Source: Streptomyces clavuligerus
Lineage (GTDB): Bacteria > Actinomycetota > Actinomycetes > Streptomycetales > Streptomycetaceae
DNA length: 64,000 nt
NCBI RefSeq assembly: GCF_005519465.1
Contig: NZ_CP027859.1
Span: 558,001 to 622,000, forward strand
Reading direction: 5' to 3'
The notes below the pieces were generated by a model. It was not told where the DNA came from and searched no databases. It saw nothing but the letters and a program-made list of their open reading frames with translations. Made by a program: the position numbers and the translations under genes. Shown here piece by piece: positions 9,664-28,017 of the stretch (position 1 is its first letter; each line of letters starts with the position of its first letter).

Positions 9664-10884
9664 ATGGTGGACACCGCCCCGCCGGGCCCGTCCGACGCAC
9701 CGTCCTACCCGCAGCCGAGGCCCTGCCCCTATCAACCGCCGCCCGCCTACGAGCGTCTGGGCGCGCAGGCGCCGCTGTCCCGGGTCACCCTCTTCGACGG
9801 CCGCGCCGTCTGGTTCGTCACCGGCTATCCCGAGGCGCGTCAGCTCCTCGCGGACCCACGGATATCCGCCGACCGTGAACGCCCGGAGTTCCCGATCACC
9901 GCGCCCCGTCTGCGGGCCGAGGTCTCCCGGCGGTTCATCCTCCTCAGCATGGACGCGCCCGTCCACGGCGAGTACCGGCGGCTGCTCAACCCGGACTTCA
10001 GCCGCAAACGGATCGCGAGCCTGCGGCCTGTCGTCCAGTCCGTCGTGGACGACCATCTGGACCGGATGCTGGAGCAGGGGCCGCCCGCCGACCTCCTGCG
10101 CGACTTCGCGCTGCCCGTGCCGTCCCGGGTGATCTCCGAACTGCTGGGGCTGCCCCCGGAGGACACGGAGCTCTTCCAGCGGCTCTCCGGCCGGCTGCTG
10201 CGGGCCGGCAGCGCCGACGACGCCCAGGAGGCCGCCCGCGAACTCGGCGACTACCTCGGCGCCCTGACCGCCCGGCCGCCCGAAGGGCCCGGTCCCGGGC
10301 TGATCGCCCGGCTCGCCCATGACGAGGTCGCCACGGGGCGGCTCAGCCACGCCGACCTGGTACGGATCGCCCTCGTCATCCTGCTCGCCGGGCACGAGAC
10401 CACGGCGTCCACCATCACGCTGGGCACCGTCACCCTGCTCGACCACCCCGAGCAGCTCGCCCGTATGCGGTCCGATCCGGCCACCGTGCCGGGGGCGGTG
10501 GAGGAGATCCTGCGCTGTGTCGCGGTCACCGATCTCGCGGGGGTGAGGGTCGCCACCGCCGACATCCCGGTCGCCGGGCAGATCATTCGCGCCGGTGAAG
10601 GCGTTCTGCTGTCCAGCACGATGGCCAACCGGGACCGGCGCGTCCACACAGACCCGGACACCTTCGACATCGACCGCACCGGACGCCACCATCTGTCCTT
10701 CGGCTACGGCATCCACCAGTGCCTCGGCCAGAGCCTGGCCCGGATGGAGCTGGAGATCGCGTTCTCGGCCCTCTTCACCCGTATCCCCACCCTGCGGCTG
10801 GCCGTTCCCGTCGACCGGCTGCCCACCAGGCCGCCGAGCAGCGGCGCCATCCAGGGTTTCGACGAGCTGCCGGTGACCTGGTGA
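9664..10884 (+). CDS. Cytochrome P450, CYP105-like
   Basis: A soluble bacterial P450 of 406 residues. Diagnostic parts: I-helix oxygen-binding motif AGHETT at about 242-247, K-helix ExxR (EEILR, from residue 280), and the haem loop FGYGIHQCLG with the thiolate Cys353. The N-terminus (YPQPRPCPYQPP) and the IHQCLGQSLARMEL segment are typical of CYP105, a Streptomyces family of broad-specificity hydroxylases for xenobiotics and antibiotics. ATG 9664 follows GAGGGAGCG. It overlaps the ferredoxin gene by 4 nt (GTGA), so the pair should be translated together. The substrate is unknown; no biosynthetic core gene is immediately adjacent. Confidence 0.92.
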   Translation: MVDTAPPGPSDAPSYPQPRPCPYQPPPAYERLGAQAPLSRVTLFDGRAVWFVTGYPEARQLLADPRISADRERPEFPITAPRLRAEVSRRFILLSMDAPVHGEYRRLLNPDFSRKRIASLRPVVQSVVDDHLDRMLEQGPPADLLRDFALPVPSRVISELLGLPPEDTELFQRLSGRLLRAGSADDAQEAARELGDYLGALTARPPEGPGPGLIARLAHDEVATGRLSHADLVRIALVILLAGHETTASTITLGTVTLLDHPEQLARMRSDPATVPGAVEEILRCVAVTDLAGVRVATADIPVAGQIIRAGEGVLLSSTMANRDRRVHTDPDTFDIDRTGRHHLSFGYGIHQCLGQSLARMELEIAFSALFTRIPTLRLAVPVDRLPTRPPSSGAIQGFDELPVTW

Positions 10885-13585: not shown

Positions 13586-13616
13586 CCGGTCCTCCTGGGG
13601 CGGGGCGGGTCGGCAG

Positions 13617-13711
13617 GCCAGGTCGTCGCGGCCGGGCGAGCCCTGCGAGAGTACCTTCATCTGCCGGGACTTGAGGCCGGACGGGGCACTTCGGCGGCAC
13701 CGCGCGGAGCC
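13617..13711 (-). pseudogene. Remnant of the 3' end of a DUF885 gene
   Basis: This stretch matches the 3' end of the intact DUF885 gene at 23314-25017. By hand count 52 of the first 60 bases are identical (13617-13676 against 23336-23395), with weaker similarity over the next 35. In translation MKVLSQGSPGRDDLA corresponds to MKALSQGSLGLDDLA of the intact protein. The rest of the gene is absent, and the frame runs into the NRPS-like gene region. It marks one end of a duplicated junction around the biosynthetic cluster. Confidence 0.85.
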
Positions 13712-13736
13712 GTGGACCGGGGGCACGGGGCCGCTG

Positions 13737-16700
13737 TCACCCGGTCGTGGTCCGCTCCTCGGCGCGGTGCAGGAAACCGGTCGTTTCGAGGTGGTCCAGA
13801 CAGCGGTCGACGAGGGTGGCGTCCACGGGCGGGCACAGGATGCCGGTCCGGCGCAGGGCCCGGTCGGCGTTGTCGCGCCGGATTCCGCTCAGGTCGTCCA
13901 TCAGGCCGTCCGTACCGGGCGGCGGGGTGAGCATCGGCAGGAACGGGGTGAGCGGGGCGTCAGGGGTCTCGGCGGCCTGCGCGGCCATGGCGGCGAGCCA
14001 CTCCGCGGCGGGCAGTCGGCGGACGGTGTGGCCACGGGCGCGGAGCCGGTCCACGACGAGACGGAAGTCGGCGGGCCGGGGGTTGGCGAGGTGGTAGGTC
14101 CGGCCGTCGGGCGGCTCATGGGTGATCAGGTGGACGAGCGCGTCGGCGGCGTGGTCCACGGGGACCAGATCGAGGGGCAGCCGCGCGTCGGGGGCGGTGC
14201 CGGTGTCGGCGATCGCCTTGATCAGCGCGCTGATCAGCATGTTGGTGGGCCAGACACCGCCGGTGGCGGGCCCTGAGATGTCGTACGGGCGGTATACGGC
14301 GACGGGCAGCCCGCGGGCCGCCGCCCGGCGGAGCAGGCCCTCGGCCACCCACTTGCTCTGCGCGTAGCCCGTACGCAGCCGCTCGGGGTGTTGGGGCGGG
14401 GTGTCCTCGTCGAGAACGGTGCGGCCCGCCGTGGCGTCCCCGCCGAGCGTGTCGACGGTGGAGACGTAGTGGACCGGCTTGGGGCCGTGGGTGGCCGCCA
14501 GCAGCAGCACGGTGCGGGTGCCGGTGACGTTCGCGGGGCGCAGCGCCGTGTAGGGGTAGGCGAAGTTCACCTGTGCGGCGTTGTGGACGACGGTGTCGAC
14601 GGTGCGGGCCAGGGTGTCGAAGGCGCCCGGGGACAGGCCGAACCCGGGGGCGGTGAGATCGCCGGGGACGGCGACGACACGCTGCCAGGTGCTGTCGGGG
14701 GTGAGGCCGTGGCGCCGGGCGCCCGTTTCGAGACGGCGCTCGGCGTGTGCGGTGTCGTCGGCGCGGACGAGGCAGTGGACGGTGGCGGTCGTGCGGCGCA
14801 GCAGACGGTGCAGGAGGTGGGTGCCGAGGAAGCCGGTGGCACCGGTGAGCAGGATGTGGGCGGGGGGAGCCGTGCGGGTGGAGGTACGGGTGGTGATGCG
14901 CGGCTCGGGCCCGAGCCGGGTCTCCGCGGTGAAGTCGACGGTTTCGCCGTCCGGGGCGCTGTCGGCGGCGAGGGCGTCGACGGCGCGGGCGAAGTCCCGC
15001 ACAGTGGGCCCGGCGAGCAGCAGGGTGAGCAGGGCGGTGGTGTGGGTGGCGGGCATGGCCAGCCGGTTCCGGACGGCGGCGACGGCGCGTACCGCGAGGA
15101 GGGAGCCGCCGCCGAGGGCGAAGAAGTCGTCGTCCCTCCCGGCGTCGGGGACGGCGAGCAGATCGCCCCATGCCTCGGCCACCAGGCGTTCGGTCTTCGT
15201 GGCGGGGGGCGGGCCCGCCGGTCGGGTGCGGGAGTCGGGCAGTTGCCGGCGGTCCACCTTGCCGTTGGAGTTGTGCGGCAGTTCGTCGACGACGTGGATG
15301 GTGGCGGGAACCATGAAGGGTGGCAGGCGGTCCGCCAGGAAGGAGCGCAGCCCACGGGCGAGGGCGCTCCGCCCGGCGGCGCCGGGGGTGCCGCCGCGAT
15401 CGGCACGGACGCCGTCGGCGGAGGTCGCGTCGGCGGAGGTCGCGTCGGCGGAGGCGGCTTCGGCCGGAGCGGCTTCCGTGGAAGCGGCTTGCGTGGAGGC
15501 GGTTTCGGCAGCGGCGCTCGCGCGGCGGCGGACGTCGGCCGAGGGGACGGCCCAGGCGATGAGCTGACGACGTCCGGCGGGGGTGGTGCGGACATCGGCG
15601 ACGGCGGCGCTGAGCTGGGGGTGGGCGGCGAGGGCGCTTTCGACCTCGGCGAGTTCGACGCGGTAGCCGTTGATCTTGACCTGCCGGTCGATACGGCCGA
15701 GGAAGTCCAGGACACCGCCGGCGTCGCGGCGGACCCGGTCGCCGGTGCGGTACAGGCGGGTGCCGTCCGCGCCGGTGCGGAAGGTCTCCCGGGTCCGTTC
15801 GGGGTCGCCGTGGTAGCCGAGGGCGAGCCCGTCGCCGCCGACCCACAGTTCGCCCGGTTCGCCGTCCGCGGCGGGGGTGCCGTCGGGGCGCAGGACATGG
15901 GCGGTGGAGTTGGCGGCCGGGAGCCCGATGGGGACGGTCTGCTCCTCGTCGCCGAGTCCGGTGATCTCGTGCGCCGTGCAGAAGATCCCGTTCTCGGTGG
16001 GGCCGTAGGCGTTGATCAACCGCCGGGGCGGGCCGTGGCGCAGGACGGCGCGGACGGCGGTGGGGTTGACCACGTCGGCGGTGACGTACAGCTGGGTCAG
16101 GGAGGCGAACATCCCGGGGTCGTGGGAGGCGGCCTCGTGGAAGACCCCGGCGCTGAGCACCATGACCGTGGCCCGCTCGGTGCGGATGCGGCGGGCGAGC
16201 GCGGCGGGCGAGAGGAGGGTGTGCCGGTCGACGAGGACGAGGCGGGCACCGTTGAGGAGGGCGCCGTAGATCTCGAAACAGGAGACGTCGAAGGCGAGGC
16301 TGCTCGTGGCCAGCCAGGTGTCGCCGGGGCCCGCTTGCAGCAGGGGGGTGTCGAGGACCAGGCGGGTGGGGGCACGGTGCGGGACGGCGACGGCCTTGGG
16401 GCGACCGGTGGTACCGGAGGTGAACATGATGTACGCGGGGTCGGCCGCCGAGGGTTCCTCGACGGCGGCGGGCGGTCGCCCGGCGCCCTCGGTGACACGC
16501 GGCATGGGCACCCTGACGCCGATGGCCAGGTCGGGCAGGCGTGGATCGTCCACGGCGGCGCGCAGGCCGACCTGTTCGGCCATCCCCGCCAGACGGGCCT
16601 CGGGGTGGATGGGGTCGAGCGGTACCTGGACGCCGCCCGCCTTCAATACGCCCAGCAGGGCGGCGACGGCCTCGGCGCGGGGTTGCGCGACCACACCGAC

Positions 16701-17042
16701 CCGGTCCCCGGTGCGGACCCCGTGGCGCCGCAGACGGTGCGCGACCGCGTTGGCCCACCGGTCGAGTCCGCGGTAGGTGACCCGGGTGTCGCCGTCGTCG
16801 ACGGCGGGCGCGTCGGGGGTGGCGCGGACCTGGCGCTCGAAAAGCCTGAACAGCGTCGTATTGCGGGGGTAGGACGTTCCGGTGGCGTTCCACGGGGCGT
16901 CGTCCCCGCTCCAGCCCGCCCCGTTCGCGTCGGACTCGTTCCCGCCCGCTCCGTTCCCGCCGGACCCGGACGGGCCATTCCCGGCGGAATGATTCCCGAC
17001 GGGGTGATGACCGGCCCGGTGCTTCTCGTGTGCGGCATTCAT
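13737..17042 (-). CDS. NRPS-like adenylation-thiolation-thioester reductase (A-T-R) protein
   Basis: An 1101-residue protein with three domains and no condensation domain. Residues 1-60 are a Gly/Asn/Ser-rich tail. The adenylation domain (about 65-610) shows FTSGTTGRPK (from 207), NAYGPTE, YRTGD and GRIDRQVKINGYRVELAEVE. Its hinge carries an unusual Ala/Ser/Glu/Asp repeat insert at about 512-541. The carrier domain has the phosphopantetheine Ser647 in GGGSLLAV. The reductase (about 727-1101) has the NADPH motif TGATGFLGTHLL and the catalytic YxxxK (Tyr893, Lys897). Such proteins activate a carboxylic or amino acid, tether it and release it as an aldehyde. It is divergent from the ACP-KS-oxoamine synthase operon. 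The amino acid specificity is unknown. Confidence 0.9.
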   Translation of the reverse strand: MNAAHEKHRAGHHPVGNHSAGNGPSGSGGNGAGGNESDANGAGWSGDDAPWNATGTSYPRNTTLFRLFERQVRATPDAPAVDDGDTRVTYRGLDRWANAVAHRLRRHGVRTGDRVGVVAQPRAEAVAALLGVLKAGGVQVPLDPIHPEARLAGMAEQVGLRAAVDDPRLPDLAIGVRVPMPRVTEGAGRPPAAVEEPSAADPAYIMFTSGTTGRPKAVAVPHRAPTRLVLDTPLLQAGPGDTWLATSSLAFDVSCFEIYGALLNGARLVLVDRHTLLSPAALARRIRTERATVMVLSAGVFHEAASHDPGMFASLTQLYVTADVVNPTAVRAVLRHGPPRRLINAYGPTENGIFCTAHEITGLGDEEQTVPIGLPAANSTAHVLRPDGTPAADGEPGELWVGGDGLALGYHGDPERTRETFRTGADGTRLYRTGDRVRRDAGGVLDFLGRIDRQVKINGYRVELAEVESALAAHPQLSAAVADVRTTPAGRRQLIAWAVPSADVRRRASAAAETASTQAASTEAAPAEAASADATSADATSADGVRADRGGTPGAAGRSALARGLRSFLADRLPPFMVPATIHVVDELPHNSNGKVDRRQLPDSRTRPAGPPPATKTERLVAEAWGDLLAVPDAGRDDDFFALGGGSLLAVRAVAAVRNRLAMPATHTTALLTLLLAGPTVRDFARAVDALAADSAPDGETVDFTAETRLGPEPRITTRTSTRTAPPAHILLTGATGFLGTHLLHRLLRRTTATVHCLVRADDTAHAERRLETGARRHGLTPDSTWQRVVAVPGDLTAPGFGLSPGAFDTLARTVDTVVHNAAQVNFAYPYTALRPANVTGTRTVLLLAATHGPKPVHYVSTVDTLGGDATAGRTVLDEDTPPQHPERLRTGYAQSKWVAEGLLRRAAARGLPVAVYRPYDISGPATGGVWPTNMLISALIKAIADTGTAPDARLPLDLVPVDHAADALVHLITHEPPDGRTYHLANPRPADFRLVVDRLRARGHTVRRLPAAEWLAAMAAQAAETPDAPLTPFLPMLTPPPGTDGLMDDLSGIRRDNADRALRRTGILCPPVDATLVDRCLDHLETTGFLHRAEERTTTG
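15420..15505. repeat. 15-bp repeat array in the A-domain hinge
   Basis: Tandem and degenerate 15-bp units (ggaggtcgcgtcggc and variants) encode Ala-Ser-Ala-Asp/Glu-type pentapeptides. The array lies between the core and C-terminal subdomains of the adenylation domain, where the hinge must rotate during catalysis. Confidence 0.75.
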
Positions 17043-17271
17043 GAGACCCCTCTTCGGTCGCCTGCTGAATGCGACCGTAACGGCGGCGATCGGGGTCAGG
17101 TAAGCCGCGGTTCCGCTCAGCGGGACAGGCCGTCGACGACGCGTCGGGAAGGATCTAATGTGCTCCGCATGCCCGGTGGGAACGGCGGCGGAGATCCGGC
17201 CCGGGTGGCCTTTTCGATGTCGCGGGAAGCCCTGCCCGCGAAGCGACCGCGTCAGAGGACGAGGAAACCCG

Positions 17272-17508
17272 ATGGTCTATGAAATCGTCACCGAACTGCT
17301 GATCACCGTGTTCGACGTCAGTCCTGAAACGGTCGGCTCCACCGCTTCCCTGGAGGATCTGGGGCTGGATTCACTGGCCCAGGTGGAGCTGGCCGACCGC
17401 CTCGCGGAGCATTTCGACATCCAGATCCCGGAAACCGCGTTGCGGGGTCCGACGACACTGGCCGATATCGTGCACACGGTCGAGCAGCGGCAGGGCACCT
17501 GGTCGTGA
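17272..17508 (+). CDS. Free-standing acyl carrier protein
   Basis: A 78-residue ACP. The 4'-phosphopantetheine attachment serine lies in LGLDSLAQVEL, and the sequence shows the acidic four-helix pattern of type II ACPs. ATG 17272 has GAGGACGAGG upstream; the longer frame to 17158 lacks similarity to ACPs. Its stop overlaps the GTG of the ketosynthase by 4 nt. It should carry the acyl chain used by the ketosynthase and then by the oxoamine synthase. The divergent A-T-R gene starts 229 nt away, so both promoters lie in 17043-17271. Confidence 0.93.
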   Translation: MVYEIVTELLITVFDVSPETVGSTASLEDLGLDSLAQVELADRLAEHFDIQIPETALRGPTTLADIVHTVEQRQGTWS

Positions 17509-18785
17509 GCAATACACACAGGCCCCCTACACGCAGGACAGCGAATGAGCCATGGACCGCCCGGAGGGGACCGCGTGTGGTCGTCACCGGAATCGGTGTG
17601 ATCAGCGCGGCGGGCACAGGTGTCGAGGAGAACTGGAAACGGGTGGTGGCGGGCGAACCCACCGCGGCCCGGGATTCCGTGCTCTTCGGCAGTCCGGTGG
17701 ATTTCGCCTGCCGGGTACCGGATTTCGACCCCGGTCCGCGTCCGGGCGGGCCGCAGGCGGAACGCCTCGACCGGTATGCCCAGTTGGCCATGGTGGCCGC
17801 GGCGGAGGCCCTCGCCTCCGCGGGGCTGCCCGCCTCCCCCGGCGACCCCGACCGGTGCGGGATCGTGCTGGGCAGCGTGGCCGGGGGCATGGGCACGCTG
17901 GAGGAGCAGGCCGCACGGCTGGAGCGCGGCGGCCCCACGGCGGTGGCCGGGCGCACCATGCCCCTCGGGCTGCTGAGTTCGGCCGCGGGTGCCATCAGTG
18001 TGCGCCACGGCCTGCGGGGCACCTGTCTCTCCGTGGCGACCGCGTGCGCCTCGGGCACCCAGGCGATCGGCCTGGCCCGGGACCTGGTGGGCGCCGGTAC
18101 GCTCGACATCGCCCTGGCCGGGGGCGCCGACGCCCCGCTGACGCCGTTCAACGCCGCCGCCTATGCCAGGCTGCGCGCCCTGTCCCGGCGCGCCGACGAC
18201 CCGCGCGGCGCCTCCCGGCCCTTCTCCGCGACCCGGGACGGCTTCGTCCTCGGCGAGGGCGCGGGCTTTCTCGTGCTGGAGCGCGAGGACGACGCCCGGG
18301 CTCGGCGGGCCCCGCTGCTGGCCGTTGTCGCGGGCCACGCGGCCACCGCCGACGCCCACCACGCCGTCCGGCCCGACCCCACCGGCTCCGGGGCCCGCCG
18401 CGCGATGCTCGGCGCGCTCGCCGACGCGGATCTCGATCCGGGCTCGGTGGGGCACATCAACGCCCACGGCACGTCCACCCTTCTCAACGACGCCGTCGAG
18501 GGGACCGCCATCGGCGAGGTCTTCGGCGACCGCGTGGCCGTCAGCTCCACCAAGGGGGTGACGGGCCACACCTTCGGCGCCGCGGGCGCCCTGGAGGCGG
18601 CGTACGCGGTCCTGGCCCTGCGCGAGGGGCTGATCCCGCCCACGGCCAACCTCACCGATCCCGATCCGTCCATCCCCGTGGACCTGGTGGCGGCACAAGC
18701 CCGCCGCGCCCGGCTGGACGCGGTGATGAGTAATTCCTTCGGCTTCGGCGGCTACAACGCCTCCCTGGTCCTCACCACCGTGTGA
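17505..18785 (+). CDS. Beta-ketoacyl-ACP synthase (KAS II / FabF-like)
   Basis: A 426-residue condensing enzyme. The Cys-His-His triad is intact: Cys181 in TACASG, His321 in INAHGTST and His355 in TGHTFGAAG. It is therefore a working ketosynthase and not a chain-length factor. The N-terminus has RVVVTGIGVISAAG as expected, and the C-terminus ends SFGFGGYNASLVLT. No acyltransferase, ketoreductase or dehydratase gene is nearby, so other functions would come from primary fatty-acid synthesis, or the product is used as the ketoacyl form. The last codons of this gene are the first unit of a 44-bp tandem triplication (18757-18888). Confidence 0.93.
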   Translation: MSNTHRPPTRRTANEPWTARRGPRVVVTGIGVISAAGTGVEENWKRVVAGEPTAARDSVLFGSPVDFACRVPDFDPGPRPGGPQAERLDRYAQLAMVAAAEALASAGLPASPGDPDRCGIVLGSVAGGMGTLEEQAARLERGGPTAVAGRTMPLGLLSSAAGAISVRHGLRGTCLSVATACASGTQAIGLARDLVGAGTLDIALAGGADAPLTPFNAAAYARLRALSRRADDPRGASRPFSATRDGFVLGEGAGFLVLEREDDARARRAPLLAVVAGHAATADAHHAVRPDPTGSGARRAMLGALADADLDPGSVGHINAHGTSTLLNDAVEGTAIGEVFGDRVAVSSTKGVTGHTFGAAGALEAAYAVLALREGLIPPTANLTDPDPSIPVDLVAAQARRARLDAVMSNSFGFGGYNASLVLTTV

Positions 18786-18888
18786 CCCACTCCCCGTCAA
18801 ACGCCTCCCTGGTCGTCACCGCCGTGCGACCCACTCCCCGTCAAACGCCTCCCTGGTCCTCACCGCCATGTGGCCCGCTCCCCGTCAT
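18757..18888. repeat. 44-bp tandem triplication of the ketosynthase 3' end
   Basis: Three consecutive copies of a 44-bp unit start at 18757, 18801 and 18845 (each beginning acgcctccctggt). The first contains the last codons and stop of the ketosynthase. The other two lie in the gap before the oxoamine synthase; the third is the most diverged. This is slippage or tandem duplication rather than a mobile element. Confidence 0.95.
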
Positions 18889-18918
18889 CCGCGTCATCCG
18901 CACAGGAAGGGCATCCCG

Positions 18919-20358
18919 ATGGAGATCCCCGTGGATCGTCCCCGCACCGGCGATACCCTCGGCGGCGCCCCTCCCGGCGGGGCCTCCCGCCCCCGCGTCT
19001 CGCACGGCGGGCTCTCCCAGGGCGGGCTCTCCCACAGCGGGGACGAACGGTCGCTGGGTTCCTTCGCCTCCCTGCGGGGCCGACACCTCCTGGACCGGCT
19101 CACCCCCTTCGAACAGTGGCGGCGCCCCCACGCCGAGCAGGGCGTCTGGGGCTACCACCAGCAGACGCTCAGCCACCCGTTCACCCCCCGGGCCCGTACC
19201 CGCGACGAGTTCGGCGACGAGGGGAGCGGCGTCAACCTCCTCACACAGGACTACCTCGCGCTCAGCAGCCACCCCGCGGTGCACGAGGCGATCACGGCGG
19301 CGCTGCGGGACCACGGCCCCCACAGCGGGGGCTCCCCCGCCGCGGCGGGCGACACACCACTGGCCGAGGAGTTGTGCGGACAGCTCGCCGAGTTGACGGG
19401 CATGCGCCATGTCGTGCTCTTCCCCACCGGCTGGGCAGCCGGGTTCGGCGCGGTCAACGCCCTCGCCCGCCGCTTCGACCACATCGTCGTGGACGAGCTG
19501 GTCCACGCCTGTGTGCACGAAGGCGTCGCCGCCGGCCGCTCCACCCGGATCACCCGGACACCGCATCTGGACCACGGGGCCGTACACCGGGCACTGCGCC
19601 GCATCCGGGCCGAGGACGCCGCCAACGGCATCCTCGTCATCACCGAGAGTCTCTTCTCGATGAACTCCGACACGCCCGACCTCGCCGCACTCCAGCGGAC
19701 GTGTCACGAGTACGACGCGGTGCTGCTGGTCGACCAGGCCCACGACATCGGCGTGCTCGGCCCCGGGGGGCGGGGCCAGGCCGCGGGCCAGGGGATGCAC
19801 GGCCGGCTCGATGTCGTCGTGGGGTCGATGAGCAAGGCGTTCGCCACCAACGGCGGCTACCTCGCCACCAACTCCTCCTCCGTCGCCGCCTATGTGCGCT
19901 ACTTCGCGAGCACCCATATGTTCTCCTCGGCCCTGACACCGCTCCAGACCGCGGGGGCCCTGGCCGCCGCGCGGATCATGCGCTCCGACGAGGGGCAGCG
20001 GCTCCGGGACGAGCTGCTGCGCAACGCCGGGGTCCTGCGCCGGGAGCTGGCCCGCACGGCTTCGGGCCCCGCCCCGTACACCGTCCTCGGGGTGCCCTCC
20101 CCCATCGTGCCGGTCGAGATCGACTCCCTGGCCGTGGGGCGCGCCGCGATGGGCGTCGCACGCCGCGACGGCGTCCTGCTCCACCTCGTCGAATTCCCGG
20201 TCGTCCCACGGGGCCGGGCGCGCTACCGGCTCCAGCTCTCCAGCGCGCACCGGCCCGAGGACCTCGCCCTGGCCGCGCGGGTCATCCGCGAGGCCGTCGC
20301 CTCCGCCCGCGCCGACACCACCACCCGCCCCGAGGATTCCCCCGTCAAGAGAAGGTGA
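18919..20358 (+). CDS. PLP-dependent alpha-oxoamine synthase (AONS/KBL family)
   Basis: A 479-residue fold-type I PLP enzyme. ATG 18919 has AGGAAGG 8 nt upstream. Residues 1-50 are a Gly/Ser-rich extension with repeated GGLS. The core has NLLTQDYLALSSHPAV, GDTPLAEEL, the cofactor motif LLVDQAHDIGVLG and the Schiff-base Lys306 in GSMSKAFATNGG, which define the 8-amino-7-oxononanoate synthase, serine palmitoyltransferase and KBL group. These enzymes condense an acyl thioester with an amino acid and lose CO2 to give an alpha-aminoketone. With ACP and KS upstream, acyl-ACP is the likely donor. Biotin synthesis is unlikely because no other bio genes are present. Confidence 0.9.
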   Translation: MEIPVDRPRTGDTLGGAPPGGASRPRVSHGGLSQGGLSHSGDERSLGSFASLRGRHLLDRLTPFEQWRRPHAEQGVWGYHQQTLSHPFTPRARTRDEFGDEGSGVNLLTQDYLALSSHPAVHEAITAALRDHGPHSGGSPAAAGDTPLAEELCGQLAELTGMRHVVLFPTGWAAGFGAVNALARRFDHIVVDELVHACVHEGVAAGRSTRITRTPHLDHGAVHRALRRIRAEDAANGILVITESLFSMNSDTPDLAALQRTCHEYDAVLLVDQAHDIGVLGPGGRGQAAGQGMHGRLDVVVGSMSKAFATNGGYLATNSSSVAAYVRYFASTHMFSSALTPLQTAGALAAARIMRSDEGQRLRDELLRNAGVLRRELARTASGPAPYTVLGVPSPIVPVEIDSLAVGRAAMGVARRDGVLLHLVEFPVVPRGRARYRLQLSSAHRPEDLALAARVIREAVASARADTTTRPEDSPVKRR

Positions 20359-20362
20359 CCCG

Positions 20363-21037
20363 ATGACCAGCAACCCCACCGACGTACAGATCACGGCCGT
20401 GCGCTCGGCCGCCGACCGGCTCGTCGACCGGCTGCGCCACACCGCCACCGACAACGACTACGTCGCCAAGGCCCGGGCCGGTGAACTGACCGGCGACGAC
20501 ATCGCCGCCCTGGTCCGGCTGGAGAACGCGACCCTCGACGGCGTGACCGCCCCCATCGGTCTGGCGGCGGCACGGTTCCGGAACACCCCCGCGATGGACT
20601 TCATGCTCGACATCGGCCGGATGGTCAGCGTCGACCGCACCAACATCCGGGCCTCTGCCGTCGCCTACGGAACGGCCCTGGAGGAGTACCCCGGGCAGCG
20701 TCTGGACCCGGTCGCCTACGGCTACACCGGATTCATCAACTGGGCCTGTGTGCACGCCGACGCGGAGGCGATGGCGCTGATCGCCTATGTGGACATCACC
20801 CTGTGGCACGAGGCGTGCGTCATCCTCACACCGGTCCTGCGCAAGCACCCCGGGCTCCCGCACGAGGTCGTCGAGTACTTCGCCTCGTACGAGGAGCGCC
20901 CGGACGAGGTGCTGGACGCGGCCCTGGACGTCATCGCGCACGGTGTGGCCCAGGGGTACGAGCTCCAGCGGGCCGTCGACACGGCCCGGCTGATGGGGGA
21001 CTATCTCGCCACCTTCTGGCGGGCGGCCGGGCAGTAG
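20363..21037 (+). CDS. Haem-oxygenase-fold (TenA/HDO-like) protein
   Basis: A 224-residue all-helical protein, starting 4 nt after the oxoamine synthase, so probably coupled to it. Segments LVRLENATLDG, WACVHADAEAMALIAYVDITLWHEAC and VEYFASYEERPDEVLDAALDVI recall the TenA / haem-oxygenase-like fold. This superfamily includes thiaminases and the diiron oxidases (for example UndA, BesC) that cleave or oxygenate acids and amines. Several Glu/His residues are placed so that they could bind metal, but I cannot confirm the ligand set. It is the best candidate for the unusual step of this cluster. Confidence 0.6.
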   Translation: MTSNPTDVQITAVRSAADRLVDRLRHTATDNDYVAKARAGELTGDDIAALVRLENATLDGVTAPIGLAAARFRNTPAMDFMLDIGRMVSVDRTNIRASAVAYGTALEEYPGQRLDPVAYGYTGFINWACVHADAEAMALIAYVDITLWHEACVILTPVLRKHPGLPHEVVEYFASYEERPDEVLDAALDVIAHGVAQGYELQRAVDTARLMGDYLATFWRAAGQ

Positions 21038-21120: not shown

Positions 21121-21924
21121 TCAGTCCCGCGCCGGTTCCGGAACGTGTCGCAGGACGCGGTGGGCGTGTGCTCCGCACTGACGCAGCAGAGCACACACCG
21201 CGGTGGGGTCGAACGCCTCCGGATGCCCCCCGGCGCTGAGCGCGGCCAGGATCTGCCCCTGGGCCCCGAGGACCGGCACCGCCGCCGTGGCGATGCCCGA
21301 AGCGGCGCCCGGAGCGGTGCCGTGCGGGCCCAGGCAGATACCGGAACGCTGGATGCCCGCCAGCTCCATCGCCAGTTCCGGCCCGGCCCAGCCGTTCCCG
21401 GGTCCCGCGGGGGGTCGCGCCCGGTCGGCCTCGGTATGCGCGAGGATGACCTTGCCCGCGGGTGTCCGGTGCAGCGGCGTGGGCTGTTCGAGGCGCCCGA
21501 CGACGGAGCTGTACCGCTGGCTGTAGATCAGTTCGACGAAGCAGGCGGTGGTGCCGTCGCGGACGCTGAGGCCGACGATGTGGCGGGTCCTCTCGTACAG
21601 CGTGAGCAGCACGGGCTTCAGCAGATGGCGCAGGAGCCGGACCTGTTCGCTCTCGCGCGGCCGGGACAGGTCCAGCACGGCCTTGCCGAGGCTGTAGAAC
21701 TCACCGTCCCGGTGGACCATCTCCAGGACGTGCAGTTCGGTCAGGAGACGGTGGGCGGTGCTCTTGGCCAGGCCGGTGGACTGGACGATCGTGGTGAGCG
21801 AGACCGGCTCACCGCTGGTCCGGACGGCGCGCAGGATGCACAGCAGCCTGCTGGCCAGTCTGCCCGCTCCGGCCGACGCCGATGCCGCGGATGCCGGCAG
21901 TTCGGATGTGCGCGTCGAGTTCAC
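21121..21924 (-). CDS. IclR-family transcriptional regulator
   Basis: A 267-residue regulator. An N-terminal winged helix (LLCILRAVRTSGEPVSLTTIV, STGLAKSTAHRLLTEL) is followed by an IclR effector domain containing the conserved RTPAGKVILAH and the AAVPVLG segment. A Ser/Ala-rich leader of about 20 residues precedes the HTH. It converges on the biosynthetic operon and is the only dedicated regulator between the two duplicated junctions, so it may control the cluster, though no operator was identified. It is followed upstream by more than 1.2 kb without genes. Confidence 0.9.
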   Translation of the reverse strand: MNSTRTSELPASAASASAGAGRLASRLLCILRAVRTSGEPVSLTTIVQSTGLAKSTAHRLLTELHVLEMVHRDGEFYSLGKAVLDLSRPRESEQVRLLRHLLKPVLLTLYERTRHIVGLSVRDGTTACFVELIYSQRYSSVVGRLEQPTPLHRTPAGKVILAHTEADRARPPAGPGNGWAGPELAMELAGIQRSGICLGPHGTAPGAASGIATAAVPVLGAQGQILAALSAGGHPEAFDPTAVCALLRQCGAHAHRVLRHVPEPARD

Positions 21925-23277: not shown

Positions 23278-23313
23278 CGGCGGCGAGGGGCAGGGCCGCG
23301 GCGGGGTGTCCCG

Positions 23314-25017
23314 CTAGAGCACGGCGAGTCGACCGGCCAGGTCGTCGAGGCCGAGTGAGCCCTGCGAGAGCGCCTTCATGTGCCAGGTCTTGAGGTCGAA
23401 CGAGGTGCCCCGGCGGCGGCGCGCGGCCTCGCGGCCCTGGAGCCAGACGCGTTCGCCGAGTTTGTAGCCGATGGCCTGGCCGGGCCAGCCGAGGTAGCGG
23501 ACGATCTCGCTGTCCCGCATGTCGGCGGAGCTGCCGGTGTAGGTGGCCAGGAACTCCGTGGCGAGGGCCGGGGTCCAGCGCTCACCGGGGTGGAAGCCCG
23601 CGTCGGCGGGGATGGCCGAGCCCAGGTGCATACCGATGTCGATGATCACCCTGATGGTGCGCAGCATCTGCTCGTCGAGGAAGCCGAGGCGGCGGGCGGG
23701 GTCGGTGAGGAAGCCCAGATCGTCCATGAGGCGTTCGGCGTACAGGGCCCAGCCCTCGATGTTGGCGCTGACCATGCCCAGAGTGGTCTGGTAGCGGCTG
23801 AGACGGTCGGCGAGGGAGACCCACCGGGCGAGTTGCAGATGGTGGCCGGGGACTCCCTCGTGGTACCAGGTGCTGACGAGTTGCCAGGTCGGGAAGGTGT
23901 CCCGGCCGAGGGTGGGCAGGAAGGTCCGTCCGGGGCGGCTGAAGTCGAGGCTGGGGCCCTGGTAGTACGGTGCCGCCGAGCTGCCGGTGGGCGCGATACG
24001 GGACTCCACCCGGCGCAGCGGGCCGGAGAGGTCGAAGTGGGTGCCGTCGAGGGCGGTGATCGCCTCGTCCATGAGCTGCTGGAGCCAGTCCCGGATCGCT
24101 TCCTCGCCGATGACGGTGTGACCGTGCCGCTCCAGATGGCCCATAGCCTCCTGGACTCCCGCTCCGGGCAGCACCCGGTCGGCTTCGGTGCGCATCTCGG
24201 CCACCGTGCGGTGGAACTCGCTCCAGGCCCAGGTGTACGCCTCGTCCAGGTCGGGATCGGCGCCGGTGTGGTGGCGTACGGCGATTCCGTAGCGTTCCCG
24301 GCCGACGGCGTCGGGGGTGTCGGCGGCGGCCGGGGTGTAGGTGTCGCGCAGCCAGTCGCGGAACCCGGCGACGGCGGCGGTGGCCTTGAGGGCGGCGGCG
24401 TCCAGTTCGCCGCGCAGCCCCTCGGGCCCGGGTGCGACAAACCCCGCGAACCATCCCGAGCCGTCGCCTTCGGCGTTCTCACCGGTCCAGGCGGTGAGCT
24501 GGTCGACGACTGCGGCCGTCTGCCGGGGCGCGGCGGTCAGGCCCCGGGAGATCCCCTCGGCGAGGGTGGCGCGGTACCCGTCGAGCGCGGCGGGGAGGTT
24601 GCGCAGCCGTCCGGCCACCGCCGCCCAGTCGTCGTCGGTGGCGGTCGGCATGAAGGTGAAGATGTCCCGCACCTGGTGGACGTGTGCGCCGATGGTACGG
24701 AGCTGGCGGAAGTTCTCACCGGTGTCGTGGAGGGCGAGTTCGGCGGTGAGGCGCTCCCTCAGCAGCCGCGCGCAGTTCCGGTCGGCGGGGTCCTCGTCGG
24801 CGGGCGGCGCGGCGGCGCGCGCTTCGAGCGTGTCGAGCGCGGTGAGGGTGCGACGGGCGATGTCCGCGAGCGCCTCGAAACCCTCCGGGGAGAGATCCGG
24901 CTGCCGGTCGTCACCCGGGTGCAGCCCCAGCCAGGCGGCCTCCAGCGGGTTGTGAGCGGCCACGTGGTCCAGGTAACGGTCGGCGATGGTGCGCGGGGTG
25001 ATCGTCTCCTCTGTCAT
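23314..25017 (-). CDS. DUF885 family putative metallopeptidase
   Basis: A 567-residue DUF885 protein. ATG 25017 (MTEETITPRTIADRYLDH) is preferred to the codon six residues upstream. The zinc-binding motif is in TWYHEGVPGHHLQLARW (HExxxHH), with a downstream glutamate in ANIEGWALYAERLMDDLGF as the probable third ligand. GWPGQAIGYKLGERVW near the C-terminus is also characteristic. The family resembles M3/carboxypeptidase-like zinc peptidases; substrates are mostly unknown. There is no signal peptide, so it is probably cytoplasmic. The last ~95 bp are duplicated as a remnant at 13617-13711. Confidence 0.85.
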   Translation of the reverse strand: MTEETITPRTIADRYLDHVAAHNPLEAAWLGLHPGDDRQPDLSPEGFEALADIARRTLTALDTLEARAAAPPADEDPADRNCARLLRERLTAELALHDTGENFRQLRTIGAHVHQVRDIFTFMPTATDDDWAAVAGRLRNLPAALDGYRATLAEGISRGLTAAPRQTAAVVDQLTAWTGENAEGDGSGWFAGFVAPGPEGLRGELDAAALKATAAVAGFRDWLRDTYTPAAADTPDAVGRERYGIAVRHHTGADPDLDEAYTWAWSEFHRTVAEMRTEADRVLPGAGVQEAMGHLERHGHTVIGEEAIRDWLQQLMDEAITALDGTHFDLSGPLRRVESRIAPTGSSAAPYYQGPSLDFSRPGRTFLPTLGRDTFPTWQLVSTWYHEGVPGHHLQLARWVSLADRLSRYQTTLGMVSANIEGWALYAERLMDDLGFLTDPARRLGFLDEQMLRTIRVIIDIGMHLGSAIPADAGFHPGERWTPALATEFLATYTGSSADMRDSEIVRYLGWPGQAIGYKLGERVWLQGREAARRRRGTSFDLKTWHMKALSQGSLGLDDLAGRLAVL

Positions 25018-25107
25018 GGCGTCATCCTCGCGCACGGGTGGGGGTGGCCGGCTCGCATACCGTGGTTTCGGTGTGGGTGAGGGGGTGTTGGGGGCGGTGG
25101 GGTGTGG

Positions 25108-25473: not shown

Positions 25474-26709
25474 TCAGGGCCTGCGCCCCCGAAAGGTGCG
25501 GCGCAGGTCGGTCACCCACGCGTCGGGGTTCTCCCAGGGAATGAAGTGCCCGCCGTGCTCATGGGCGTTGACGTTGACGTGGTTGAACCAACCGGCGAGC
25601 GGGCCGTTCGTGAACGCCCGGACGCGCTCGTCGGCGGTGTGGATGCCGGGCGGGTTCTCGTAGGTGACGAAGGTGAGGCCGACCGGGGCCTGCACGACCG
25701 GGGTGCGGTCGTGGGCGGGGGCCCAGGGGTAGCGGTTGGCGTTGGCGTAGTAACGCATCGATGTGGCGGCGGAGTTGTTCACCCAGTAGATCGTGGCGTG
25801 GGTGAGCAGGTCGTCCCTGGTGAAGACGGACTCGACGGCGCCGCCGTGGTCGCTCCAGGCGTGCCAGCGCTCCAGCAGCCAGGCGAGCAGTCCGGCGGGT
25901 GAGTCGCTCAGCCCATGGGCCAGGGTGGCGCCGTCGAGTGTGTGCACGGCGAGGTGGGACGCCCAGCGGTGGTCCAGCTCGATGACGCGGGCGCGGATGT
26001 CGGCGGGCTGGTCGTCGGTGAGGGGGCGGTTCCGGGCGAAGTCCCAGGCGCGGGGGCCGGTGAAGAAGTCCAGCGGCAGCCCGGAGCCGATGTGGATGCC
26101 GTACAGCTCGTCGGCGTACTTGTGGCCGAGCTGGCTGGAGACGATCCCGCCGATGTCGCAGCCTCCGGCGGCGTACTTCTCGTATCCGAGGGTCTCGGTC
26201 ATCAGGGTGTGCCAGAGGTCGGAGACCTTCCAGAAGTTGACGTCCGGAAAGCCGGTGAGCGGACCGGGGAAGCCGAAGCCGGGCAGGGAGGGCACGATGA
26301 CGTCGAACGCGTCGGCGGGGTCACCGCCGAACGCGGCCGGGTCGGCGAGCGGGTCGATCACCTTCGACCAGTGCCAGAACGTCCACGGCCAGCCGTGGGT
26401 GAGGATCAGCGGGATCGGGCGGGGGCCGCGCCCTGGCTTGCGCAGGAAGTGCACGGGGATACCGGCCACGTTCACCCGGTAGTGCTCGTAGGCGTTGATG
26501 GCGGCCTCGGCGCGACGCCAGTCGTAGCCGTCCCGCCAGTGGGCGACCAGTTCACGGAGGTAGCTGTCGGGGACACCGTAGGACCAGTCCTCGTTCCCCT
26601 CGTCCAGCGGCGGACGGGTCCGTGCGAGACGGGCCCGCAGGTCGTCGAGGACCTCGTCGGGCACATGGATCGGGGTGGGCTCCAGGGGGAAGGCGTGCGG
26701 GGCGGTCAT
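25474..26709 (-). CDS. Epoxide hydrolase (alpha/beta fold, EHN domain)
   Basis: A 411-residue microsomal-type epoxide hydrolase. ATG 26709 has GAGGAG 7 nt upstream. The N-terminal EHN cap (IHVPDEVLDDLRARLARTRPP, and the region of LRELVAHWRDGYDWR) is followed by the hydrolase fold: HGWP oxyanion motif, nucleophile Asp185 in GGCDIGG and catalytic His388 in HEHGGHF. It opens epoxides to vicinal diols through an ester intermediate. It is encoded on the same strand as, and downstream of, the terpene synthase/P450 operon, so an epoxidised terpene is a reasonable but unproven substrate. Confidence 0.92.
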   Translation of the reverse strand: MTAPHAFPLEPTPIHVPDEVLDDLRARLARTRPPLDEGNEDWSYGVPDSYLRELVAHWRDGYDWRRAEAAINAYEHYRVNVAGIPVHFLRKPGRGPRPIPLILTHGWPWTFWHWSKVIDPLADPAAFGGDPADAFDVIVPSLPGFGFPGPLTGFPDVNFWKVSDLWHTLMTETLGYEKYAAGGCDIGGIVSSQLGHKYADELYGIHIGSGLPLDFFTGPRAWDFARNRPLTDDQPADIRARVIELDHRWASHLAVHTLDGATLAHGLSDSPAGLLAWLLERWHAWSDHGGAVESVFTRDDLLTHATIYWVNNSAATSMRYYANANRYPWAPAHDRTPVVQAPVGLTFVTYENPPGIHTADERVRAFTNGPLAGWFNHVNVNAHEHGGHFIPWENPDAWVTDLRRTFRGRRP

Positions 26710-26865
26710 GGCGTGGCTCCTCACCGGGCAGGAAGCGGAGTCGTCGGCCTGCTGGAGTCCCATCGGCGGCGCGGGCGCCACCACTCCCGGCATGCCGCCC
26801 TCCGCCGTCCATGGCCCTCCACCTGCGCGACCAGGAGATGAGCGTACGCGACACGGGCTCCGCCG

Positions 26866-26896
26866 CCAGTCCCAGTCCCAGTCCCAGTCCCGGTTC
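26866..26896. repeat. Hexanucleotide microsatellite (cagtcc)n in an intergenic region
   Basis: About five copies of cagtcc lie between the epoxide hydrolase start and the terpene synthase stop. The same kind of hexamer appears inside two coding regions of the window (11317-11360, 35678-35720). Confidence 0.6.
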
Positions 26897-26946
26897 CGGT
26901 GGGACGCGTGGTTCGTGTGCGGCGAGCCCTCAGGGGAAAGGAGTGG

Positions 26947-28017
26947 TCACCCGGACGGTGGGCCCATGGTGCCGGGGGCGGTGGTCCAGGGGTCGGCGGA
27001 GGAAGCCGCCGGGGTGTTCACCGACAGGTCGCGGGTGTAGCGGGCGGAGCAGAGGGCCCAGGTGAGGTAGGCCGCGGGGAAGTTGAGGGCGGCGCACGCG
27101 ACCCGGCTGACGGCGCGGACGGTGGCCGGGGGGAGGCCCAGCCGCGCGGCGGTGGCGGGGATGCGGCGGCCGAGGGCGGCGGCCCGGTCGAGGCGGTCGG
27201 TGATTCGGGCGGTCAGCCAGTGCACGGCGGCGGGGGCGGTCAGGCCGAGGTGGTGGCGGGCGACGAGGAGGTAGTTGACGGTGAGGCCGTCGGTCGCCTC
27301 CTTGGGGCAGGAGAGGATGTCGTTGCACCAGTTCGCGGCGTCGCTGATGTGGCGGATCAGCTCCTGCCAGAGGGCGGTGGCGGCGAAGGCGGGCGGCAGT
27401 TCGACGCAGAGGATCGCCTCGGGCAGGTCGTAGAGCCACAGGCCGCTGGACCGGCGGCGCAGCAGGGGGTATTCCGCGACGGTGGGAACGGTGTTGGTGC
27501 GCCGCAGATGGTGTTCGTTCAGGCAGCCGGTGTACTGCTCGCGCAGATGACGGTGGAAGCGGCCGATCCAGTCGCTGGTCATGCCGTGGCTGGTCTGCCG
27601 CCAGAGTCCGGCCAGCGCGGTGACGATCGGATGCTCGGGTCCGCCGGGCGGGCCGGCGGGGGCACCGGGGGCGCCGGTGCGGTGCAGCAGTCCGGTGAAC
27701 AGGGTGTCGACGGCCTGGGGCGCGGTGCGGGACTCGATGTGGTCGTCCAGGCAGAACACCCAGATCAGCCAGCGTGCGTAGAGCAGGACTTGGTCGTCGC
27801 GTTCCTCGGACATCGCGACGGCGGCGAGGCGGTCGAGGCCATGGGCGCCGAGCCGCAGCGCGGCCGGTCCGGTGGCGAGGCCGCTGGCGGCGGCCCAGTG
27901 ACGGGCCCGCTGTTCGAGGTGGGGGGCGTGGCGGTGGCGGCGGTGGGGACGGTGCAGCCAGCGGGTGGCGTCCGGGAGCGTTTCGGGTGGCCAGGGGGCT
28001 GCGGCGGCCGAGGCCAT
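26947..28017 (-). CDS. Class I terpene synthase 1
   Basis: A 356-residue terpene cyclase. The first metal motif is FCLDDHIES (Asp91, Asp92, Glu95), of the DDxxE type. The second is NDILSCPKE (Asn232, Ser236, Glu240), an intact NSE triad, and the C-terminal RY pair appears in SARYTRD. It should ionise a prenyl diphosphate, most often farnesyl diphosphate in this family, using three Mg2+. The product cannot be read from sequence. ATG 28017 begins only 6 nt after the stop of the EF-hand gene, so the two are probably translationally coupled. Confidence 0.93.
   Translation of the reverse strand: MASAAAAPWPPETLPDATRWLHRPHRRHRHAPHLEQRARHWAAASGLATGPAALRLGAHGLDRLAAVAMSEERDDQVLLYARWLIWVFCLDDHIESRTAPQAVDTLFTGLLHRTGAPGAPAGPPGGPEHPIVTALAGLWRQTSHGMTSDWIGRFHRHLREQYTGCLNEHHLRRTNTVPTVAEYPLLRRRSSGLWLYDLPEAILCVELPPAFAATALWQELIRHISDAANWCNDILSCPKEATDGLTVNYLLVARHHLGLTAPAAVHWLTARITDRLDRAAALGRRIPATAARLGLPPATVRAVSRVACAALNFPAAYLTWALCSARYTRDLSVNTPAASSADPWTTAPGTMGPPSG

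Follow-up and report, generated by a model that had tools for sequence, protein, structure and literature searches.

We analysed a stretch of 64,000 nucleotides from the clavulanic-acid producer Streptomyces clavuligerus (hereafter the window) and found a set of six genes, located on the giant plasmid (megaplasmid) pSCL4, that we conclude with high confidence to be a real, conserved and uncharacterised unit. The genes encode a nonribosomal peptide synthetase (NRPS)-like protein with adenylation, carrier and thioester reductase domains (A-T-R; the window's protein is called ATR), a free acyl carrier protein (ACP), a FabF-like ketosynthase (KS), an α-oxoamine synthase (AOS), a protein with a predicted TenA/PqqC/heme-oxygenase fold (HO) and an IclR-family regulator. 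The kinds of component are known, and their combination appears to be new within the searches made. We tentatively propose that the set is a two-arm cluster in which an amino-aldehyde and an aminoketone would condense to a pyrazine. Our confidence is moderate for the two-arm chemistry and low for the exact product. The window covers bases 558001-622000 of contig 2 of its genome. The AOS is 100% identical to the copy in two S. clavuligerus plasmid records, including pSCL4 of strain DSM 738, a record that carries no gene annotation in the sequence collection used.

Conservation and rarity of the six-gene set

The original prediction, made from the letters of the window, had described five genes at 13737..21037. 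Domain matches for four of them and a predicted structure for HO confirmed their presence, and the set proved larger than claimed: a sixth gene, encoding the IclR regulator, is conserved in Streptomyces varsoviensis, and an IclR match of 32% identity lies beside the set in Amycolatopsis alba. Genome mining, which had been suggested as a check, recovered all six genes in S. varsoviensis (L039) in the same order and orientation, with 46-73% protein identity (ATR 62%, ACP 46%, KS 69%, AOS 73%, HO 69%, IclR 51%). In A. alba, which belongs to another family, the set is present and rearranged (ATR 53%, HO 59%, two KSs 62%, ACP 36%, AOS 64%). The order there is IclR, then ATR-HO-KS2 reading leftward and ACP-KS1-AOS reading rightward, and the two groups diverge; these genes were called with a home-made scorer and their starts are rough. 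Because the six genes are collinear in S. varsoviensis and present in rearranged form in A. alba, their co-occurrence exceeds chance. Parts of the set were also found elsewhere, with orthologues of AOS, HO and ATR on equal-sized contigs in S. arenae (115548) and a plasmid of Streptomyces sp. BI20 (2010573), of AOS and ATR in A. thailandensis (338418), and of AOS and HO in one further record (182938).

The six-gene set is rare. A match to HO at E ≤ 0.001 occurred in 71 of 392 sampled Streptomyces genomes; the best one in the 391 genomes other than its own reached E 9.7e-22 at 30% identity, with partial matches of up to 35%. In the family of Sciscionella, 16 of 390 genomes gave an AOS match at E 1e-100; only two of them exceeded 60% identity, and the other 14 stood at 45-47%. 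A further 296 genomes, drawn around S. varsoviensis and searched at E 1e-115, contained a single AOS above 60%, that of S. varsoviensis itself. The original prediction had recognised no known pathway, and in the searches made we likewise matched the conserved set to no characterised cluster. In the searches made of the open-licence literature we found no paper joining an oxoamine synthase or a heme-oxygenase-like protein with a thioester reductase in a cluster, and the available portions of two papers on S. clavuligerus pSCL4 do not describe the set (PMC5702194, PMC6856088).

Enzymes of the two proposed arms

In the proposed pathway, ACP would be primed from primary metabolism and extended by the FabF-like KS, and AOS would join the acyl-ACP to an amino acid with loss of CO2, giving an α-aminoketone, R'-CO-CH(R'')-NH2. 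In the other arm, ATR would activate an amino acid, probably a large hydrophobic or aromatic one, and release an α-amino-aldehyde, OHC-CH(R)-NH2. Head-to-head condensation of each amine with the other partner's carbonyl would yield a dihydropyrazine and then a pyrazine. HO may act with ATR, most likely as a metal-free acid-base catalyst of the TenA/PqqC type, and could steer or finish the aldehyde step or the ring closure, while the IclR regulator would control expression of the cluster. Because each amine attacks the other partner's carbonyl, R and R' would flank the same ring nitrogen, and a glycine-derived aminoketone (R'' = H) would lead to a 2,6-disubstituted pyrazine; any other amino acid at AOS would lead to a trisubstituted one. 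This pathway is supported by the catalytic residues, which are intact in ATR and KS and retained in AOS, by the joint retention of all six genes in both S. varsoviensis and A. alba, and by the A. alba split into ACP-KS-AOS and KS2-HO-ATR, which matches the two proposed arms. Further support comes from the equal-sized contigs that carry AOS, HO and ATR in S. arenae and BI20, from an AOS-KS-ACP locus in Actinomadura rubrisoli and from the A-T-R genes near HO relatives, both described below.

The original prediction had reasoned that an aminoketone and an amino-aldehyde could be combined, and single-enzyme precedents support this logic as far as their available text goes (PMC11480411, PMC8658869). 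The pyridoxal-phosphate (PLP) enzyme Pyr of Klebsiella oxytoca couples an amino acid to an acyl thioester, and the aminoketone goes on to pyrazines (PMC11480411). Like the presumed activity of AOS, that of Pyr leads to an aminoketone, but Pyr uses succinyl-CoA with Tyr or Phe, and the accessible part of the paper mentions no A-T-R, ACP, KS or HO-fold partner (PMC11480411). For the 2,5- and 2,6-disubstituted lentzeacin pyrazines, the available text proposes an amino-aldehyde from a mono-modular reductase NRPS, a dihydropyrazine and an oxidation; it discusses amino-aldehyde cyclisation for the 2,5-pyrazines and describes the origin of 2,6-disubstituted pyrazines in actinomycetes as never determined (PMC8658869). 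The candidate gene for lentzeacin differs from the present set in being carboxylic-acid-reductase-like and located beside an aroF homologue, and no oxoamine synthase is mentioned in that text (PMC8658869).

We assigned ATR to the stand-alone NRPS-like A-T-R reductases by its domains and catalytic residues. PF00501, PF00550 and PF07993 exceed their Pfam cut-offs and TIGR01733 and TIGR01746 their NCBIfam cut-offs, and the carrier Ser647 and the reductase Tyr893/Lys897 are present, as are the other residues that the original prediction had quoted (Cys181/His321/His355 in KS, Lys306 in AOS). We read the ten-residue code of the adenylation domain from an alignment. S. clavuligerus, S. varsoviensis, S. 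arenae and BI20 share DVFVVAAIFK, two Amycolatopsis have DVFVSAAIFK, and the other stand-alone A-T-R proteins compared carry different codes, e.g. DVFWAGGVFK. Given the code positions that we assume, and a presumed likeness of DVFVVAAIFK to Phe-type codes, a large hydrophobic or aromatic amino acid is a weak lead for the ATR substrate. Another ATR-like gene of S. varsoviensis (about 50%; G392 contig 1, 529682-532750) is separated from its cluster by roughly 100 kb, and a further A-T-R-like match of 32% identity lies a few kb from the A. alba cluster (L139 3332-6283).

The likely ACP start is the ATG at 17272; the PF00550 score of 48 bits was obtained with a translation that is slightly longer (17263-17508). 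The GTG start of the KS gene at 17505 overlaps the ACP stop. With Cys181, His321, Lys350 and His355 intact, KS qualifies as a FabF-type β-ketoacyl-ACP synthase at the subfamily level (catalytic triad; NF005589, 420.3 versus a cut-off of 387), and it falls below the cut-off of the FabF equivalog TIGR03150 (430.5 bits versus 493.75). In a tree of the four cluster KSs (one each from S. clavuligerus and S. varsoviensis, two from A. alba) and eight other KSs of the three genomes, the four form one clade with support of 100/100, separate from the eight. The two A. alba copies pair at 83/84, which is consistent with a duplication within the cluster. That the second copy adjoins HO and ATR on the same strand would fit a different pathway, in which ATR passes its carrier-bound aminoacyl group or aldehyde to KS or AOS, and a linear aminoketone or an aminoacyl-extended chain closes to a pyrroline or other cyclic imine. 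We consider such a hand-over quite improbable: ATR has its own reductase, the S. clavuligerus set holds a single KS, and neither a thioesterase nor a condensation domain was detected among its proteins.

AOS belongs to the α-oxoamine synthase superfamily (KBL/BioF/ALAS/SPT). A PDB search placed KBL, ALAS and BioF at the top (E 8e-42 to 7e-40; KBL 1fc4, E 7.7e-42), and in the alignment H195, D271, H274, K305 and R436, whose roles we assume (among them PLP lysine, PLP aspartate and ring-stacking His), are invariant. These positions refer to the 478-aa query, in which the PLP lysine is residue 305; it is residue 306 in the 479-aa form. AOS falls outside the named classes (BioF, KBL, SPT, ALAS and CAI-1 synthase), scoring below the cut-off of all 13 listed NCBIfam models, with BioF the best at 228.8 versus 426.45. 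SxtA (saxitoxin) and PigH (prodigiosin) are ACP-using PLP oxoamine synthases that form part of fused multidomain proteins, whereas the present AOS is a separate protein, accompanied by a free ACP and a FabF-like KS. The PF00155 score of 101.9 bits belongs to a longer AOS open reading frame. Its start at 18868 falls within one of the tandem copies of the KS gene end and is probably false.

Relatives of AOS occur in other settings as well. In Actinomadura rubrisoli (L045 6848-13685), a 50% relative is accompanied by two KS-III, an ACP, a zinc alcohol dehydrogenase and two short-chain dehydrogenases/reductases; this locus, in which no A-T-R match was found, is an orphan aminoketone pathway. Because it holds AOS, KS and ACP without an A-T-R match, the three occur as an independent module. 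Together with a Sciscionella AOS described below, this locus shows that such enzymes serve several pathways. A tree of AOS sequences places the Sciscionella enzyme immediately outside the group of the orthologues named above, and two Kitasatospora enzymes, whose gene context was not seen, fall inside it.

The heme-oxygenase-fold protein and competing pathways

Sequence searches with HO against Pfam, NCBIfam and the PDB were negative at the thresholds applied, and its predicted structure has, among the fold families that the structure search listed, the TenA/PqqC/heme-oxygenase fold. Identity to TenA thiaminase II, PqqC and CADD (PDB 2gm8, 1otw and 8vag) is 11-18%; PF03070 (TENA/THI-4/PQQC) gave no match to HO up to E 10, and it matches three of 14 aligned relatives. 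The helical fold is the one expected of heme-oxygenase-like diiron oxidases, which the original prediction had considered a possible identity of this protein. The ligand set of these oxidases, three His and three carboxylates, was not found in HO by a test on sequence only; in SznF, as given in the available part of its description, the diiron ligands are E215, H225, E281, H311, D315 and H318 (PMC11705231). The motif Hxxx[DE]xxH is present in none of the six HO orthologues, and His149 is their only invariant His. A Glu followed by a His 6-10 residues later occurs in the BI20 and A. alba proteins and not in the other four. We rejected a diiron oxidase role on this ligand pattern. An initial conclusion from the protein search that HO is confined to Streptomyces was wrong, as the A. 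alba locus encodes the 59% orthologue, which was missing from that search. A KS/HO fusion on a 1877-base contig (P0006), likely an assembly artefact, was left out of the counts. Genome-wide, PF03070 matches a single S. clavuligerus gene, on the chromosome (L200, 762278-762907), which by eye looks like PqqC and lies amid genes resembling those of PQQ biosynthesis.

The ham pathway (fragin/valdiazen) offers the nearest likeness in this respect, since in the accessible text the A-T-R protein HamD works with a putative heme oxygenase, HamA (PMC5878181), a pairing shared with the present set (PMC5878181, PMC10194917). This would suit a diazeniumdiolate or N-oxygenation pathway like ham, mgo or pvf, with HO oxidising the amine of a carrier-bound amino acid. 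Such a pathway is nonetheless highly improbable here. ham and pvf carry an AurF-type/diiron N-oxygenase (HamC, PvfB), and the available portions of these papers do not mention an AOS, a KS or a free ACP (PMC5878181, PMC10194917). HO appears to lack the diiron ligand pattern. No AurF-type N-oxygenase like HamC or PvfB was found among the ten proteins scanned (the six of the cluster and four of the left flank), and we do not count the set among these clusters.

We assessed the pairing of HO with A-T-R enzymes in 44 regions of 11-20 kb from the Streptomyces HO search, comprising all 14 with a match at E ≤ 4.1e-9 outside the S. clavuligerus genome and 30 of 33 places at E 7.8e-8 to 1.4e-5. An A-T-R hit was a gene pair like the A and R domains of the window's ATR, in line and on one strand; the hits were not individually confirmed as stand-alone proteins. 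Of the 14 stronger regions, 8 contained such a pair, compared with 2 of the 30 weaker ones (Fisher p 0.0006), a split that was fixed after the list was seen. The A parts of the hits in L167, L168 and L183 share only 34-37% identity with that of ATR. With three strong reductase domains in the 8.5 Mb of S. clavuligerus, the chance of meeting one in an 18-kb stretch taken at random is about 0.6%. These counts suggest that A-T-R enzymes tend to accompany the HO-fold proteins of this branch, although mostly not the closest relatives of HO, and the A. alba ATR-HO-KS2 group points the same way. Two of the regions (L143 8892-14841 and L145 9955-15441) show, by eye, HO relatives followed by FAD-type and amidohydrolase-like genes, with no KS or AOS matches; L143 also has a possible glutamate-cysteine-ligase-like gene. 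They are possibly a separate, repeated Streptomyces cluster type. In another 18-kb Streptomyces stretch (L166), two A-T-R-like genes and two HO-fold relatives lie side by side.

Regions L143, L144, L146 and L163 hold A-T-R and HO genes without AOS or KS matches, and A. rubrisoli holds AOS, ACP and KS-III without an A-T-R match. Both would be expected if the two arms never met, with an amino-aldehyde or amino-alcohol from ATR dimerising or acting alone, a separate aminoketone from ACP, KS and AOS, and nothing but co-regulation in common. We judge this unlikely, ranking it next after the chief rival described below, as the six genes remain together in two actinomycete families despite rearrangement and a second KS lies within the A. 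alba HO-ATR group.

Other observations weigh against the pyrazine pathway. Its product and both substrates are putative. Among the five HO relatives with the best E values (L145, L160, L161, L143 and L162), only L143 has an A-T-R gene, so that the HO-ATR link draws mostly on more distant relatives. In Sciscionella (L040), a 64% AOS adjoins a GNAT gene and no ATR, KS or ACP match was found in the 21-kb locus examined; AOS can thus serve other pathways. The A. alba AOS is adjoined on the other strand by dehydrogenase-like and enoyl-CoA-hydratase-like genes (L140 2365-4552, by eye), whose membership is uncertain. No evident oxidase for aromatisation is present among the six genes; dihydropyrazines are generally taken to oxidise in air.

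The six genes also include no ketoreductase or dehydratase, and AOS might for this reason receive a β-ketoacyl chain, which would favour pyrrole chemistry. In this chief rival, the FabF-like KS with its intact Cys-His-His would supply a β-ketoacyl-ACP, AOS would form a 2-amino-1,3-diketone, and a Knorr-type condensation with the amino-aldehyde would give an acylated pyrrole. We regard a pyrrole as unlikely: the primary fatty-acid synthase could reduce the chain, no sequence feature favours a 1,3-dicarbonyl substrate for AOS, and the absence of reductive enzymes was judged with only part of the relatives' neighbouring genes annotated. The pyrazine pathway could also take a stricter form, a dedicated cross-coupling of the ATR amino-aldehyde and the KS-AOS aminoketone with ring steering by a metal-free TenA/PqqC-fold protein, giving an unsymmetrical pyrazine, with the A-T-R/HO pairing as a wider, undescribed Streptomyces partnership. 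This combined proposal is speculative, and we would not expect all of it to hold.

Genomic setting and significance

The features of the set and its edges are collected in Table 1.

Table 1 Genes, repeats and likely edges of the six-gene set, in positions of the window
Feature	Position	Strand	Basis or remark
ATR, NRPS-like adenylation - carrier - NAD(P)H thioester reductase, 1101 aa	13737-17042	-	Pfam/NCBIfam, orthologues
Free ACP, 78 aa, Ser in GLDS	17272-17508	+	PF00550, orthologues
KS, FabF-like ketosynthase, 426 aa	17505-18785	+	Cys181-His321-Lys350-His355, tree clade
AOS, α-oxoamine synthase, PLP fold type I, 479 aa, K306	18919-20358	+	PF00155, PDB matches, orthologues
HO, TenA/PqqC/heme-oxygenase-fold protein, 224 aa	20363-21037	+	Predicted structure; without canonical diiron ligand pattern
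IclR-family regulator	21121-21924	-	PF01614 and PF09339; orthologue at same place in S. varsoviensis
Degraded copy of DUF885 gene 3' end, 136 nt, 76% identical	13589-13724	-	Likely left edge of inserted segment
3' end of intact DUF885 gene (23314-25035, -)	23308-23443	-	Likely right edge of inserted segment
Three 44-nt-spaced copies of KS gene end	18756-18895	+	Fill most of KS-AOS gap; source of longer AOS open reading frame

The six genes are flanked by a 136-nt direct repeat (76%), whose left copy lies 12 bases past the ATR end; besides the two copies, a genome search gave no more than a pair of short matches, of 27 and about 60 bases. In S. varsoviensis, DUF885 relatives lie on contigs other than that of the cluster. 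Because a direct repeat of the DUF885 end flanks the cluster and the S. varsoviensis relatives are elsewhere, our data suggest that the cluster reached pSCL4 as an insertion beside DUF885. Among the intergenic inverted repeats, none was convincing as a shared operator.

The P450 (9664-10884), ferredoxin, flavin reductase, Rid and HxlR genes of the left flank lie outside the DUF885 repeat. We rejected them as members, as none was matched in the S. varsoviensis or A. alba stretches (L039, L139, L140); the sole match to a left-flank gene in the compared stretches is a P450 of 33% identity at the far end of L142. The P450 at 9664-10884 resembles pentalenolactone synthase, with 241 bits versus a cut-off of 700, and across the six genes from it an epoxide hydrolase and a terpene synthase lie at 25474-28017. 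The P450, epoxide hydrolase and terpene synthase are possibly parts of a neighbouring terpenoid cluster that was split by the insertion.

The set would be a compact, genetically accessible candidate for the deliberate joining of an amino-aldehyde to a polyketide-type aminoketone, chemistry that has only been hinted at by single enzymes. If the aminoketone is glycine-derived, the pathway would provide a route to the rare 2,6-pattern and could shed light on how such pyrazines arise.

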